Origin: Arcobacter sp. CECT 8985
Lineage (GTDB): Bacteria > Campylobacterota > Campylobacteria > Campylobacterales > Arcobacteraceae
Reading direction: 5' to 3'
DNA length: 41,399 bases
Assembly (NCBI RefSeq): GCF_004116495.1
Contig: NZ_PDKC01000026.1
Span: 1-41,399 of the forward strand
Below, in pieces: positions 22,538 to 27,339 of the stretch; position 1 is the first letter of the stretch; every line of letters begins with the position of its first letter. Position numbers and translations under genes: made by a program. The notes under the pieces were generated by a model, which worked only from the letters and a program-made list of their open reading frames with translations, had not been told where the DNA came from and did no database searches.

Positions 22538-22567
22538 AAATATTAATTTTTAGAATTATTAATATTT
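22538..22567 (-). terminator. AT-only hairpin at the end of the TetR gene
   Basis: AAATATTAAT (22538-22547) and ATTAATATTT (22558-22567) are perfect complements with a 10-base loop, followed on the minus strand by TTTTATATA. The stem contains no G-C pair, so it is weak, but its place at the stop codon of the regulator fits a terminator. Confidence 0.35.
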
Positions 22568-23174
22568 ATTTCCCATACATAGTCTTTATCATCTTAATTG
22601 CAGTAAAAATAACTTTTTCATTTTCTTGGTTATTAAGTTTATTTGATCCATAAAGTTGAGGGAAAAATACAAATGATTTTATTAGACCTATAAATTGTCT
22701 TGAAACAAAACAACTTGAATCAAAGTTAAGTTTATTGTCTTTTTTTGCATCTTCAAACCATTGTACAGCCATGAGATAAAAATCATCATTCATATTTTCT
22801 AAAACTTTTAAGCCAATTTTATTTTTTTGAATCATAACTACAGTGACAAGTTCTATTAATATAATATTTTGTTCATCTGATAAAAAATCAATTTCTTTTC
22901 TTGCAATATCATAAAGCTGTTCATCTATAGATTTATCTTTATTATACGGGTATTGAAAACATTCATTAACTCTTTGTTTTAAAATATTAAAAATACTTAA
23001 AAACAACTCTTCTTTATTTTTAAAGTGTTTATATACTGTAGCTTTTGATACATTTGCTTCTTTTGAAATTGTATCCATGCTAGAGCCTTCAAACCCTTTT
23101 TCATAAAATTGTTGGATTGCAGCTTTTAATATTGATTTTCGTTTTTCTTCATTTAATGGTCTTTTTTTTCGCAT
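22566..23174 (-). CDS. TetR-family transcriptional repressor
   Basis: A 202-residue regulator with the typical N-terminal helix-turn-helix (ILKAAIQQFYEKGFEG at about 15-30, then SKEANVSKATVYKHFKNKEELF) and a divergent helical ligand domain. It is transcribed away from the molybdenum hydroxylase genes, and a perfect 14-bp-arm palindrome lies between them. It therefore most likely represses itself and the hydroxylase operon, released by a small molecule related to the enzyme's substrate (inference). No strong ribosome site precedes the ATG, so expression is likely low. Confidence 0.88.
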   Translation of the reverse strand: MRKKRPLNEEKRKSILKAAIQQFYEKGFEGSSMDTISKEANVSKATVYKHFKNKEELFLSIFNILKQRVNECFQYPYNKDKSIDEQLYDIARKEIDFLSDEQNIILIELVTVVMIQKNKIGLKVLENMNDDFYLMAVQWFEDAKKDNKLNFDSSCFVSRQFIGLIKSFVFFPQLYGSNKLNNQENEKVIFTAIKMIKTMYGK

Positions 23175-23207: not shown

Positions 23208-23239
23208 ATATAAACTAAACTATGCAGTTTAGTTTATAT
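23208..23239. promoter_or_regulatory. TetR operator palindrome in the divergent promoter region
   Basis: ATATAAACTAAACT (23208-23221) and its exact complement AGTTTAGTTTATAT (23226-23239) are separated by ATGC. An additional half-site, ACTAAACT, recurs at 23252-23259, closer to the hydroxylase genes. Size, symmetry and position between a tetR gene and its divergent target fit a TetR-family operator. Confidence 0.75.
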
Positions 23240-23284
23240 TAAGATTTTTTTACTAAACTAAAATAAACAACACAAAGGAATAAA

Positions 23285-23740
23285 ATGTCTTTTAAAATAA
23301 AAATAAATGATAAAAATTATAATTTAGATATTAATCCAGATACACCATTACTTTGGGTTTTAAGAGATCACTTAAATCTTACAGGTACAAAATTTGGATG
23401 CGGAGTAGGACAATGTGGAGCCTGTACTGTGCTTTTAGATGATGAAGCCGTACGTGCCTGTCAAACTCCTATTAGTACAGTAGGTAATAAAAAAATAACA
23501 ACAATAGAAACAAAAACAGATAAAACTGTACAAAAATTACAAAAATTTTGGGTAAAACAGGATGTTGTTCAATGTGGATATTGTCAATCAGGACAAATTA
23601 TGAATGCAGCAAGTCTTGTTAAAACAAATCCAAAGCCAAGTGAAGAAGAGATAATAAAAGCTATGGATGGTAATATCTGTAGATGTGGAACTTATAATAA
23701 AATAAAAACAGCAATAAAAGCTGCGACAGCGGAGGTGTAA
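23285..23740 (+). CDS. iorA: molybdenum hydroxylase [2Fe-2S] subunit, IorA-like
   Basis: A 151-residue iron-sulfur subunit of the xanthine dehydrogenase/isoquinoline oxidoreductase superfamily. The N-terminal plant-type ferredoxin domain has C39, C44, C47 (GCGVGQCGAC) and C59. The helical domain holds the second cluster with C97, C100 (QCGYC), C132 and C134 (CRC). It passes electrons from the molybdenum site. Start ATG with AAAGGAA upstream. One base separates its stop from the catalytic subunit gene. There is no FAD subunit gene, as in Ior-type enzymes, so another acceptor such as a cytochrome c is expected. Confidence 0.9.
   Translation: MSFKIKINDKNYNLDINPDTPLLWVLRDHLNLTGTKFGCGVGQCGACTVLLDDEAVRACQTPISTVGNKKITTIETKTDKTVQKLQKFWVKQDVVQCGYCQSGQIMNAASLVKTNPKPSEEEIIKAMDGNICRCGTYNKIKTAIKAATAEV
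23731..23737 (+). promoter_or_regulatory. consensus Shine-Dalgarno site for the large subunit
   Basis: GGAGGTG at 23731-23737 lies inside the last codons of the small-subunit gene, five bases before the ATG at 23742. It is a near-complete match to the anti-Shine-Dalgarno sequence, stronger than most sites in this AT-rich window. It would keep translation of the large subunit high. Confidence 0.6.
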
Positions 23741-23741
23741 G

Positions 23742-25877
23742 ATGAAAAGAAGAGATTTTTTAAAAACAACTACAGCTGTAAGTGCAGCATATGTTATTGG
23801 ATTTTATATTCCAACTAAATCAAGAGCTAGTGAAACTAAAAAAGATGAAAAAGCATTACAACCAAATGCTTTTGTTGAAATAACACCAGATAATAATATT
23901 AACTTTATTGTTGGACAAGTTGAGATGGGGCAAGGTACATATACAACATTGGCTATGTGTATAGCAGAAGAGTTAAATGTTGATTGGAAAAATATCAATA
24001 TTGTACCTGCAAAAATAGCACCAGTATATTATAGTGTTTTTGGTCCATTGATGATAACAGGTGGTTCTTCTTCTGTATTTAGTAAACAATTAGAAATGAG
24101 AAAAATAGGAGCAGCAGTTAATGAGATGTTAATCAAAGCAGCTGCTAAAAAATGGAAAGTAAGAGCTTATGATGTTTATACAAAAGACTCAAAAGTATTT
24201 AATAAAAAGACAAAAGAGAGTTTTAAATTTGGTGATTTAGTAAGTGATTTATCAACTATGAAAGTTCCTACTAATCCTAAAATAAAAGAGTTAAAAGATT
24301 GTAAGTTTGTTGGAAAACCACACTCTAGACATCCAAAAGAGATGTGGGAAAAAGTTACTGGAAAAGCAGAGTTTGGGATAGATGTAAGAGTTCCAAATAT
24401 GAAATATGCAGCAGTTTACCATCCAACTATTTTTGGAGCAAAGGTTAAAAGTTATGATGCAAGTAAAGCTTTAAAAAAAGATGGTGTTATAAAAGTAAAA
24501 CAAATCCCTTCAGGAATTGCTGTTATTGCTGAGCATTGGTGGATAGCAAAAGAGGCATTATTAGACATTGATGTTGTTTGGGATAAAGATGAGTTTAAAA
24601 ATACAAGTGATAAACAGTTAAATACACAATATTCAAAAGCAATGGAAAAAGATGGTGCTTCAATGAGAAAAGATGGAGATTCAAAAAAAGCTTTTGAAAC
24701 TGCAGATAAAACAATTGAAGCTGAGTATGATTTTCCATTTTTAGCACATGCTCCAATGGAACCATTAGGAGTAGTAGTTCACCATGAGAAAAATAAAGCA
24801 ACAGTTTGGTCATCATCTCAATCACAAACTATGGCTTTAAAAGCTATATCAAAAGTATTAGGTGTAAAAGGTGAAAATATTACATATAATACTCCTTATT
24901 TAGGTGGTGCATTTGGAAGAAGAGGGACAATTAACCTTGATTTTATTTTAGATGGAGCTTATGTTTCAAAAGATGAAGATTTTCCAATTATGACTTTATG
25001 GACAAGAGAAGATGATATCAAAATGGGTAACTATAGACCAAAATATAAAAATAAAGTAAAAGTTGCTTTAGATAAACATGGTGATATTACTGCATTTGAT
25101 GCAAAAGTAGCTTCACAATCTATTTTTAAAGGTTCTCCTTTTGCAGCCTTTGGATTTAAAAATGGTGTAGATGGAGCTCAAAAAGAAGGATTGGTAGATC
25201 ATCCTTATGATATAGATAGTCATGATATGCAAGCATTTACGATGGATTCAGAAATACCAGTATTATGGTGGAGATCAGTTGGTCATACACAAAGTGCACC
25301 AACAGTTGAAGGTATAGTTGATGAAGCAGCATTTGCAGCTGGTGTTGACCCTATTGAATATAGAATAAATATGTTAAAAGACCATAGATTTATAACAATA
25401 CTAAAAGATGTGGCTAAAAAAGCAAATTGGGAAAATAGAAAAAAAGAGAAAAATGTTGGTTATGGTGTGGCTATTCATGAATCATTTGGAACAATCTGCG
25501 CTCAAATTGCAAAGGTGAGAGTTACAAAAGATGATTTCAAAGTAGAAAAAGTATGGGCAAGTGTTGATTGTGGATTTGCATTTAATCCACAAAATGTGAA
25601 AAACCAAATAGCAGGTTCTATTAACTTTGGTATTGCAGCACTTAAATATAGTGAAATAACGATAAATAATGGTGAAGCTACACAGAATAACTTTTATGAT
25701 TATAAAGTAAGTAGAATTTCAGATGCTCCAGAAATAGAAATAAACATCATAAATTCAGGAGAAAAAATAGGTGGTATAGGAGAACCAGGTGTACCTCCAA
25801 TCTTAGCAGCAGTGCCAAATGCACTATTTGATGCTACTGGAAAAAGATATCACTCAATGCCTATTAAAATAGGTTAA
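23742..25877 (+). CDS. iorB: Tat-exported molybdenum hydroxylase large subunit, IorB-like
   Basis: The 711-residue catalytic subunit binds the molybdenum cofactor. It begins with a twin-arginine signal (MKRRDFLK, hydrophobic to about 25), so the folded complex is probably exported to the periplasm together with the small subunit. Cofactor-binding stretches are GQVEMGQGTYTTLA (near 63-77), GGAFGRRG and the catalytic glutamate E681 in GGIGEPGVPP. LWWRSVGHTQSAPTVEG matches the IorB branch rather than xanthine dehydrogenase. It lacks the insertions of xanthine dehydrogenases. Substrates of the branch include isoquinoline and aldehydes, and the true one here is unknown. The following genes supply cofactor maturation. 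Confidence 0.88.
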   Translation: MKRRDFLKTTTAVSAAYVIGFYIPTKSRASETKKDEKALQPNAFVEITPDNNINFIVGQVEMGQGTYTTLAMCIAEELNVDWKNINIVPAKIAPVYYSVFGPLMITGGSSSVFSKQLEMRKIGAAVNEMLIKAAAKKWKVRAYDVYTKDSKVFNKKTKESFKFGDLVSDLSTMKVPTNPKIKELKDCKFVGKPHSRHPKEMWEKVTGKAEFGIDVRVPNMKYAAVYHPTIFGAKVKSYDASKALKKDGVIKVKQIPSGIAVIAEHWWIAKEALLDIDVVWDKDEFKNTSDKQLNTQYSKAMEKDGASMRKDGDSKKAFETADKTIEAEYDFPFLAHAPMEPLGVVVHHEKNKATVWSSSQSQTMALKAISKVLGVKGENITYNTPYLGGAFGRRGTINLDFILDGAYVSKDEDFPIMTLWTREDDIKMGNYRPKYKNKVKVALDKHGDITAFDAKVASQSIFKGSPFAAFGFKNGVDGAQKEGLVDHPYDIDSHDMQAFTMDSEIPVLWWRSVGHTQSAPTVEGIVDEAAFAAGVDPIEYRINMLKDHRFITILKDVAKKANWENRKKEKNVGYGVAIHESFGTICAQIAKVRVTKDDFKVEKVWASVDCGFAFNPQNVKNQIAGSINFGIAALKYSEITINNGEATQNNFYDYKVSRISDAPEIEINIINSGEKIGGIGEPGVPPILAAVPNALFDATGKRYHSMPIKIG

Positions 25878-25880
25878 CAG

Positions 25881-26771
25881 ATGTTTGAAAATAAACAGTA
25901 TTTAAAATTTATTGAAAAAAGTAAAAAACAAGGTCTTGACTTAGTAGGAGTTAGTGTTATACAAACACTAGGTTCTACTTATGCAAAGGCTGGAAATCTT
26001 ATGCTTATAAACTCTAACTTTGAGTTTGTAGGTGTTTTTGGAAGTAAGCACTTGCATAAACAAATATTAGAGTATGCAAAAATTGCTTTTAAAAATCAAA
26101 AATCAAAATACTTTGAAAACATCCCAAAAGATGAATCTTCTGGACATGGCACAAGTAAATATTTTCTACAAGTATTTTTAAAAAAAGATGATTATGGAGT
26201 ATTAGGTCTTGCACTAAAAAATTTCGATAAAACATTAGTTCGAAATATAAAAAATGATGACTATGAATTTACAAATAGAAATACAGTAACAAAATTTGAA
26301 GATGATAAATTTTATCAAAAAATTAAATTGCCATATTCACTTTTAATATTTGGTTCAGGTGCACATGTGACTTCCTTAATAAGTATAGCAAACCTTATGG
26401 GGTGGAAAACTACAATTATAGATATAAATATTAATAAAGATTATGTGAGTGAAGCTGATGATATTATAAAGTTAGAAAAATTTGAAGATATTTTAACTAT
26501 GGATTTAAGTTCATACAATGCTTCAGTTATATTAAGTCATAGTCCAAAAACAGACGATACTTACTTAAAAGCTTTAATTAATTCAAATGTTGAATATATA
26601 GGACTTATGGGAAATAAGAAGAAGATGAAAGAGAAAAAAGAAGAGTTTAAATTAGAAAATGACAAAAGATTTTTTGCACCTATTGGTTTTGAAATAGGTG
26701 GCTATACTCACCAATCAGTAGCTTTATCAATATGTGCACAAATAGAAGCAAGAAAAAATGGAAAAATTTAA
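25881..26771 (+). CDS. XdhC/CoxI-family cofactor maturation protein
   Basis: A 296-residue protein that in relatives binds the molybdenum cofactor, guards its sulfuration and inserts it into the hydroxylase. The N-terminal XdhC domain has VSVIQTLGSTYAKAGNLML, the place of the usual GSTPRxxGxxM. The C-terminal Rossmann domain begins LLIFGSGAHVTSLISIA and ends with PIGFEIGGYTHQSVALSICAQIEA, matching the family's PIG(L)xIG...PxEIAxSIxAEI. The glycine/cysteine stretch normally after the first motif (GGC type) reads GVFGSKHLHK here. It starts three bases after the large subunit stop and overlaps the MocA-like gene by 14 bases. Confidence 0.84.
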   Translation: MFENKQYLKFIEKSKKQGLDLVGVSVIQTLGSTYAKAGNLMLINSNFEFVGVFGSKHLHKQILEYAKIAFKNQKSKYFENIPKDESSGHGTSKYFLQVFLKKDDYGVLGLALKNFDKTLVRNIKNDDYEFTNRNTVTKFEDDKFYQKIKLPYSLLIFGSGAHVTSLISIANLMGWKTTIIDININKDYVSEADDIIKLEKFEDILTMDLSSYNASVILSHSPKTDDTYLKALINSNVEYIGLMGNKKKMKEKKEEFKLENDKRFFAPIGFEIGGYTHQSVALSICAQIEARKNGKI

Positions 26772-27339
26772 TAATCTAACTATATTAATATTAGCTGCTG
26801 GAACTTCAAGTCGTCTTGGAGAGCCAAAGCAACTATTAAAATTAAAAGACAAAACTTTAATAAATATTGCAATTGAAAAAGCTTTTGAATTAACTTCAAA
26901 TGTTACAGTAATTTTAGGACACAAAAGTAAAGAGATAAAAAAAAATATAGAAAATAAAAAAATAGATATATTAATAAATCCAAATTATAAAGAAGGCATG
27001 GGAAATACTATTGCATTTGCAATTTCTAAGATAAAACAACAAAAAGTTTTAATAATGCTTTGTGATCAACCTTTGATACCAATTGAACATTATGAAAATT
27101 TGATAAAACTATCAAATAAAAATGAAGATAAAATAATTTGCTCAGAATATAAAAATCAATATGCAGTACCTACAATATTCCCTACGAAATATTTTGAAGA
27201 ATTAAAAAAACTAGAAGGGAATAAGGGAGCAAAGAAGCTTTTTTTTAAATATCAACCTATAAGTCTTACTTTAATTGATAATTATTCAATAGATGTAGAT
27301 ACAAAAGAGGATTGGCAAGAGTTACTAAAAAACTCTTAA
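26758..27339 (+). CDS. mocA: molybdenum cofactor cytidylyltransferase, MocA-like
   Basis: A 193-residue nucleotidyltransferase. The glycine-rich NTP loop LAAGTSSRLGEPKQLL is at about 11-26, the metal aspartate lies in MLCDQPLIP, and VPTIFP follows in the usual position. MocA converts molybdopterin-Mo to the cytosine dinucleotide form used by IorB-type and aldehyde oxidoreductases. Its overlap with the XdhC-like gene and its place at the end of the operon support that specific role over MobA (which makes the guanine form). Its stop is two bases from the convergent rlmF. Confidence 0.86.
   Translation: MEKFNNLTILILAAGTSSRLGEPKQLLKLKDKTLINIAIEKAFELTSNVTVILGHKSKEIKKNIENKKIDILINPNYKEGMGNTIAFAISKIKQQKVLIMLCDQPLIPIEHYENLIKLSNKNEDKIICSEYKNQYAVPTIFPTKYFEELKKLEGNKGAKKLFFKYQPISLTLIDNYSIDVDTKEDWQELLKNS

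Follow-up and report, generated by a model that had tools for sequence, protein, structure and literature searches.

Described systems close to the locus analyzed here include IorAB-like molybdenum enzymes of Pseudomonas; statements about these and other published systems follow excerpts of the cited papers. PaoEFG, which is IorAB-like, oxidizes HMF, and the P. putida genes PP_3621-3623 are required for growth on vanillin (PMC11144800, PMC12064950, PMC6365646). The latter have been named an aldehyde oxidase complex (PMC7188995). A homolog from P. simiae oxidizes deoxyribose, and growth on deoxyribose depends on it (PMC6365646). In the maturation of molybdenum enzymes, XdhC-type chaperones sulfurate and insert the molybdenum cofactor (Moco), and MocA makes its cytosine dinucleotide form (PMC2997495). 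A search of the open literature found no paper on such an enzyme in Arcobacter or in Campylobacterota.

A molybdenum hydroxylase operon with its own maturation genes

We analyzed a window (i.e., the whole stretch of 41,399 nt of DNA from Arcobacter sp. CECT 8985) in which ORF calling recovered the five ORFs reported by a first-pass annotation, at the same positions:

22566..23174, minus strand: TetR/AefR-type regulator, divergent from the operon (202 aa; Pfam TetR_N and TetR_C_7)
23285..23740, plus strand: IorA/AldF-like FeS subunit with two [2Fe-2S] clusters (151 aa; Pfam Fer2 and Fer2_2)
23742..25877, plus strand: IorB/AldG-like Mo-binding catalytic subunit with a Tat motif and catalytic E681 (711 aa; MoCoBD_1 and MoCoBD_2)
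25881..26771, plus strand: XdhC-family Moco chaperone (296 aa; Pfam XdhC_CoxI and XdhC_C)
26758..27339, plus strand: MocA-like CTP:molybdopterin cytidylyltransferase (193 aa; Pfam NTP_transf_3)

The four operon genes sit close together: two junctions are gaps of 1 and 3 nt, and at the third the XdhC and MocA genes overlap by 14 nt. They are thus probably coproduced. For the last gene, the top NCBIfam model was MocA TIGR03310, at 138 bits, which is under the cut-off of 186. All eight cluster cysteines of the FeS subunit are kept (positions 39, 44, 47, 59, 97, 100, 132, and 134), forming the double [2Fe-2S] arrangement in Fer2/Fer2_2, and the Mo subunit combines Moco-binding domains with a catalytic glutamate; these features place the pair in the xanthine oxidase family. 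The glutamate, E681 of the motif GIGEPG, is the same residue in 62 of 62 aligned Mo sequences, as are E340, Q360, G388, F391, G392, R393, R511, and G680. An artifact or a pseudogene is ruled out by the open frames and the conserved active-site and cluster residues.

The N terminus of the Mo subunit, MKRRDFLK, is a twin-arginine motif whose arginine pair is kept in 60 of the 62 aligned rows, the remaining two being gapped there. The FeS subunit has no twin-arginine start of its own, and TatC is encoded in the genome. The ORFs, their Pfam domains, and the MKRRDFLK start bear out the operon parts, the Tat motif, and the built-in maturation genes described at first pass.

Permuted architecture of the catalytic subunit

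Part of the MoCoBD_2 domain of the Mo subunit (residues 36 to 172) lies ahead of MoCoBD_1 (residues 310 to 542), and the rest of MoCoBD_2 lies near the C terminus. This permuted order is the one that defines the IorB/AldG subfamily, and the original label "IorB-like" holds specifically in this sense. The best match among solved enzymes, the large subunit of a Gluconobacter aldehyde dehydrogenase (8gy3), is colinear with the Mo subunit over residues 2 to 709, with 28% identity across 685 aligned positions; 4-hydroxybenzoyl-coenzyme A reductase (1rm6) and Methylobacillus aldehyde oxidase (5y6q) align to it in shuffled order. Foldseek also ranked 8gy3 first (E value, 6.4e-48; query TM-score, 0.72), the remaining 49 listed chains having query TM-scores of 0.50 to 0.55, with a predicted Mo-subunit structure that was built from 8 sequences (mean pLDDT, 67), is poor near the active-site loops, and served for fold ranking only. 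The top PDB match of the FeS subunit was likewise 8gy3. The genes of the 8gy3 enzyme are named AldFGH, and the enzyme has a cytochrome subunit.

Distribution and phylogeny

Of 104 Arcobacteraceae genomes, 30 had an intact Mo gene; the only two further matches, in G082 and G010, were a remnant and a distant relative, respectively. The family name was taken from the nearest named record, an Arcobacter MAG with 92% identity. Among 397 genomes drawn from the phylum Campylobacterota, 19 had a strong match (>700 bits), including 13 in Arcobacteraceae and 6 in four other families; every other match in this draw was either the remnant in G082 or a weak hit to a distant family member. The Campylobacterota sequences form one clade (support, 0.998; stem, 0.80 substitutions per site) in a tree of 62 sequences, a quick FastTree with a midpoint root and weak deep nodes, from which L033 (same DNA as L045) was omitted. 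Bacteroidota and proteobacterial Mo sequences, which are 28 to 39% identical to that of the window, fall outside this clade. Two of the Mo genes, from G001 and G019, are near-identical.

Given these frequencies and the single clade, the operon is a recurrent but patchy trait of Campylobacterota. The first-pass view that such an enzyme is not a known standard trait of the phylum is amended accordingly, as the operon recurs within the family and in four others. The Mo-subunit tree, which had been proposed as a check, shows no clustering close to an enzyme of established function among the sequences placed, and the Campylobacterota clade appears to hold no characterized enzyme among those in the tree.

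The trait is also being lost, as shown by G082, a genome of the same genus. At its locus (L073), the XdhC and MocA genes are retained (54% and 46% identical, respectively) and the Mo gene is a 59-residue remnant; an AraC_N gene lies ~9 kb away. Separate, distant XDH-like genes occur in further genomes of the phylum (L075 to L078 and L086 to L095), and L075 to L077 encode an FeS-like protein of ~480 aa, perhaps fused to an FAD domain.

Exchange of the catalytic pair between genera

The window Mo protein is 97% identical to the copy in G054 (locus L042), a genome of another genus, and G080, of the window's own genus, has only a 55% identical relative. The reference protein PyrG is 85% identical in G054 and 91 to 96% identical in three own-genus genomes. 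Compared in 100-base segments, the DNA of the window and that of G054 are 90 to 100% identical between 23301 and 25900 and 28 to 77% identical beyond, in xdhC and mocA. Over positions 23256 to 25900, the FeS-Mo DNA is ~93% identical to that of L042, with a sharp fall at the xdhC start. The nearest neighbors of the L042 XdhC and MocA proteins differ from those of its FeS and Mo proteins, and L042 has neither the TetR gene nor the operator motif described below. The drop at xdhC, the differing neighbors, and the absence of TetR and operator indicate that the catalytic pair moved without the accessory genes and the regulator.

Operon structure in relatives and the electron acceptor

By BLAST, the XdhC and MocA genes both lie beside the Mo gene in 36 of 38 Campylobacterota loci, window included; the two exceptions are L071, which stops at a contig edge, and L096, which has XdhC only. 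No neighbor common to all loci was seen. Plasmids of Vibrio sp. THAF190c and Aquabacterium olei carry genes in the order FeS-Mo-XdhC-nucleotidyltransferase with no cytochrome annotated alongside, and thus the four-gene, cytochrome-free build also occurs outside Campylobacterota; an annotated cytochrome adjoins the Mo gene on Methylovirgula, Roseomonas, and Caballeronia plasmids (for all plasmid loci, gene content was taken from the annotation, and the ORF caller missed some annotated genes). Two loci from another family have a gene for a cyclophilin-like protein (Cyclophil_like2) upstream of FeS (L099:4471-4935 and L100:5645-6088), with an MFS transporter gene in between in L099.

No ORF with a CxxCH motif was found less than 4 kb from the Mo gene in any of the 38 Campylobacterota loci, window included, and the domain FAD_binding_5, which was matched in 5 of 14 control genomes, has no match anywhere in the window's genome. 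These searches uphold the earlier statement that no FAD subunit or cytochrome gene is present: the enzyme has neither the FAD-binding subunit of the PaoABC type nor the dedicated c-type cytochrome subunit of the 8gy3/PaoEFG class. All 7 Bacteroidota relatives have an ORF with two CxxCH motifs no more than 0.5 kb from the Mo gene, and a Bacteroidota partner cytochrome (from Dyadobacter), used as a query, had no match in the window's genome in a search run without a positive control.

General c-type carriers do exist, since the genome has 13 Cytochrome_CBB3 matches, 10 of them above the cut-off. On the far side of TetR, the gene considered as a partner encodes CcoG, a named cbb3 oxidase accessory protein. 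Because the operon encodes neither a dedicated cytochrome nor an FAD subunit, we infer a general acceptor, for which a periplasmic c-type cytochrome is the simplest and most likely candidate. In Burkholderia, O2 serves as the acceptor of a flavin-bearing aldehyde oxidase (PMC5131310), but that enzyme has an FAD subunit, which is missing in the window's genome. More broadly, and with considerable doubt, we suggest that the cytochrome-free Campylobacterota clade may pass electrons from the FeS subunit directly to a different acceptor (another periplasmic carrier, the quinone pool, or O2), and that, with the maturation genes in the operon, its catalytic pair may be exchanged between genera and work with a foreign chaperone.

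TetR and its predicted operator

Two repeat features lie between the TetR and FeS genes:

23208..23239, no strand: predicted TetR operator, an inverted repeat whose perfect arms of 14 bp flank ATGC
23254..23265, no strand: imperfect further half-site TAAACTAAAATA (repeat family D2, 92% identity to 23211-23222)

The former contains TAAACTA-N7-TAGTTTA at 23216 to 23236. This motif occurs exactly, in the 140 nt that precede the FeS gene, in all nine loci with a divergent TetR gene (i.e., the window and eight loci with TetR orthologs 58 to 68% identical, some of them close relatives) and in none of the 35 loci without one; the count covers 44 loci, used shuffles of single bases, and excludes L033 (a duplicate, as above), L098, L104, and L105 (no FeS ORF called), and L072 (cut at the contig end). 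On this pattern, the palindrome at 23208 to 23239 is a predicted TetR operator. With up to three mismatches allowed, its 24-mer at 23212 to 23235 is the only such site in the genome (a reversed control pattern gave five matches per strand), so that TetR probably acts locally, on this one region. The top PDB sequence match of TetR is AefR (3cdl). A promoter scan gave no sigma-70-type match in the divergent intergenic region, and the whole stretch yielded fewer matches than shuffles, so no promoter was assigned. At L043:10362-11015, a 217-aa ORF with no Pfam match follows TetR; it has the same place in L044 and L045 and is absent there in the window.

YqhC-type regulators and other neighbors

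Elsewhere in the family, some genomes have, in the TetR position, AraC-type regulators with an AraC_N domain, a build that matches that of the E. coli AraC_N protein YqhC. YqhC activates yqhD and dkgA when aldehydes are present (PMC6115493). Across the 30 genomes that carry the Mo gene intact there are 44 AraC_N genes, 13 of which (in 11 genomes; expected, 0.39) are found at most 10 kb from the Mo gene and six (in six genomes; expected, 0.09) at most 1.5 kb from it, in a test made after the colocalization had been noticed, with an expectation that assumes uniform placement and related genomes that are not independent. All but one of the 13 nearby proteins match YqhC (12 proteins; 26 to 38% identity), and the 13th, in G094, is situated at the edge of the sequence compared. 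An AraC_N gene is present in 26 of the 30 genomes with the operon and in 25 of the 74 without it (including G082, with the remnant, and G010, with a distant match only), an association for which lineage and genome size are possible confounders.

Other neighbors were also recorded. Six Campylobacterota loci (L045, L060, L061, L067, L070, and L100) encode YqhD-like reductases at a distance of 3 to 8 kb. The operon stands behind co-directional Oxidored_FMN and nitroreductase genes in L042 and behind cupin and CMD genes in L060, where a glyoxalase-fold gene lies downstream. Two proteobacterial plasmid loci (L104 and L105) have a YqhC-like gene beside the operon. Many flanks carry genes without an evident aldehyde link, and YqhC relatives need not sense aldehydes.

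The window's own genome has no AraC_N gene, 19 of the 30 genomes that carry the Mo gene intact lack one in the 10 kb around it, and no YqhC-like gene was found in the read stretch of the nine TetR loci. The aldehyde argument therefore reaches the window via relatives, mostly 53 to 61% identical; the closest case is G094 (72% identical), with its AraC_N gene 7.2 kb away. The first-pass annotation had left both substrate and acceptor open. The acceptor part of that statement stands, and the substrate is now narrowed by the 8gy3 match and the YqhC-type regulators. Together, enzyme class, context, and published relatives make an aldehyde substrate fairly likely; it may be an aldose, since the P. 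simiae relative oxidizes deoxyribose.

Proposed function and alternatives

The operon probably encodes a broad-range aldehyde oxidoreductase that belongs to the permuted IorAB/AldFG type, acts in the periplasm, uses a general electron acceptor, and serves in detoxification. As their families suggest, MocA would form the cytosine-dinucleotide Mo cofactor, and XdhC would sulfurate and insert it. The folded FeS-Mo pair would be exported by Tat via the signal of the Mo subunit, with the FeS subunit riding along, as the motif and the presence of TatC imply. In the periplasm, the Mo center and E681 would hydroxylate an aldehyde to an acid, and two electrons would pass through the two [2Fe-2S] clusters to the general acceptor, most likely a c-type cytochrome of the genome. 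In this lineage, TetR would repress the operon at 23208 to 23239 until released by its presumed ligand, an aldehyde or a derived compound. Reactive aldehydes would be detoxified before cell entry, with respiratory electrons as a by-product.

The enzyme might instead be a catabolic aldehyde or aldose dehydrogenase that supports growth, like the Pseudomonas vanillin and deoxyribose dehydrogenases, relatives whose mutant phenotypes, as given in the excerpts cited above, show them to be needed for growth on these compounds. However, no sugar-acid or aromatic catabolic pathway lies beside the operon in the annotated flanks, and neighbors vary by locus whereas stress-type regulators and reductases recur; we consider a catabolic role unlikely. 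Hydroxylation of an N-heterocycle, as by isoquinoline 1-oxidoreductase, would agree with the family and the two-subunit makeup common to both enzymes, and the isoquinoline enzyme also has no adjoining cytochrome gene. This reading is quite improbable, since ring-cleavage genes are absent from the annotated flanks and the YqhC-type regulators speak for aldehydes.

A xanthine or purine dehydrogenase is suggested by the NCBI label "xanthine dehydrogenase family" attached to relatives and by significant scores against xanthine dehydrogenase models, but all of these scores are far under the curated cut-offs, the domain order differs, and the FAD domain is absent. On model scores and architecture, we rejected xanthine dehydrogenase, and a xanthine or purine role is left with a very small probability. 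Tat export would be unusual for a purine enzyme. If detoxification by a periplasmic aldehyde oxidoreductase is the correct reading, part of the phylum has a periplasmic first line against aldehydes that is not described for Campylobacterota in the open literature searched, and the predicted TetR operator named here would give a handle on the TetR ligand. It would then also be a clean question how a periplasmic Mo hydroxylase disposes of electrons without an FAD or cytochrome partner.

Comparison with known systems

The membrane-bound aldehyde dehydrogenase of Gluconobacter oxydans (8gy3) shares with the window pair the permuted Mo subunit and the two-cluster FeS subunit, but no cytochrome gene adjoins the window operon. 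E. coli PaoABCD oxidizes aldehydes in the periplasm, as proposed for the window enzyme, and has an XdhC-type chaperone (PaoD) and a cytosine-dinucleotide cofactor, but it has an FAD subunit (PMC2997495, in excerpt), whereas the window's genome lacks the corresponding domain; moreover, its Mo subunit is unpermuted, unlike that of the window. IorAB likewise consists of two structural genes with no nearby cytochrome gene, as far as the cited excerpt describes it (PMC6365646), and its known substrate is an N-heterocycle. Compared by published description only, PaoEFG, PP_3621-3623, and the P. simiae enzyme are IorAB-like periplasmic Mo enzymes, as proposed for the window, and the P. simiae deoxyribose dehydrogenase is reported to have a Tat motif, like the window enzyme; the PaoEFG and deoxyribose clusters, as excerpted, include a cytochrome c gene, whereas the window has XdhC and MocA instead. 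The operons of Vibrio sp. THAF190c and Aquabacterium olei have the gene order of the window but other regulators, and their Mo subunits (38 to 39% identical) fall outside the Campylobacterota clade. The window enzyme belongs to a known kind of enzyme, in an unstudied branch.
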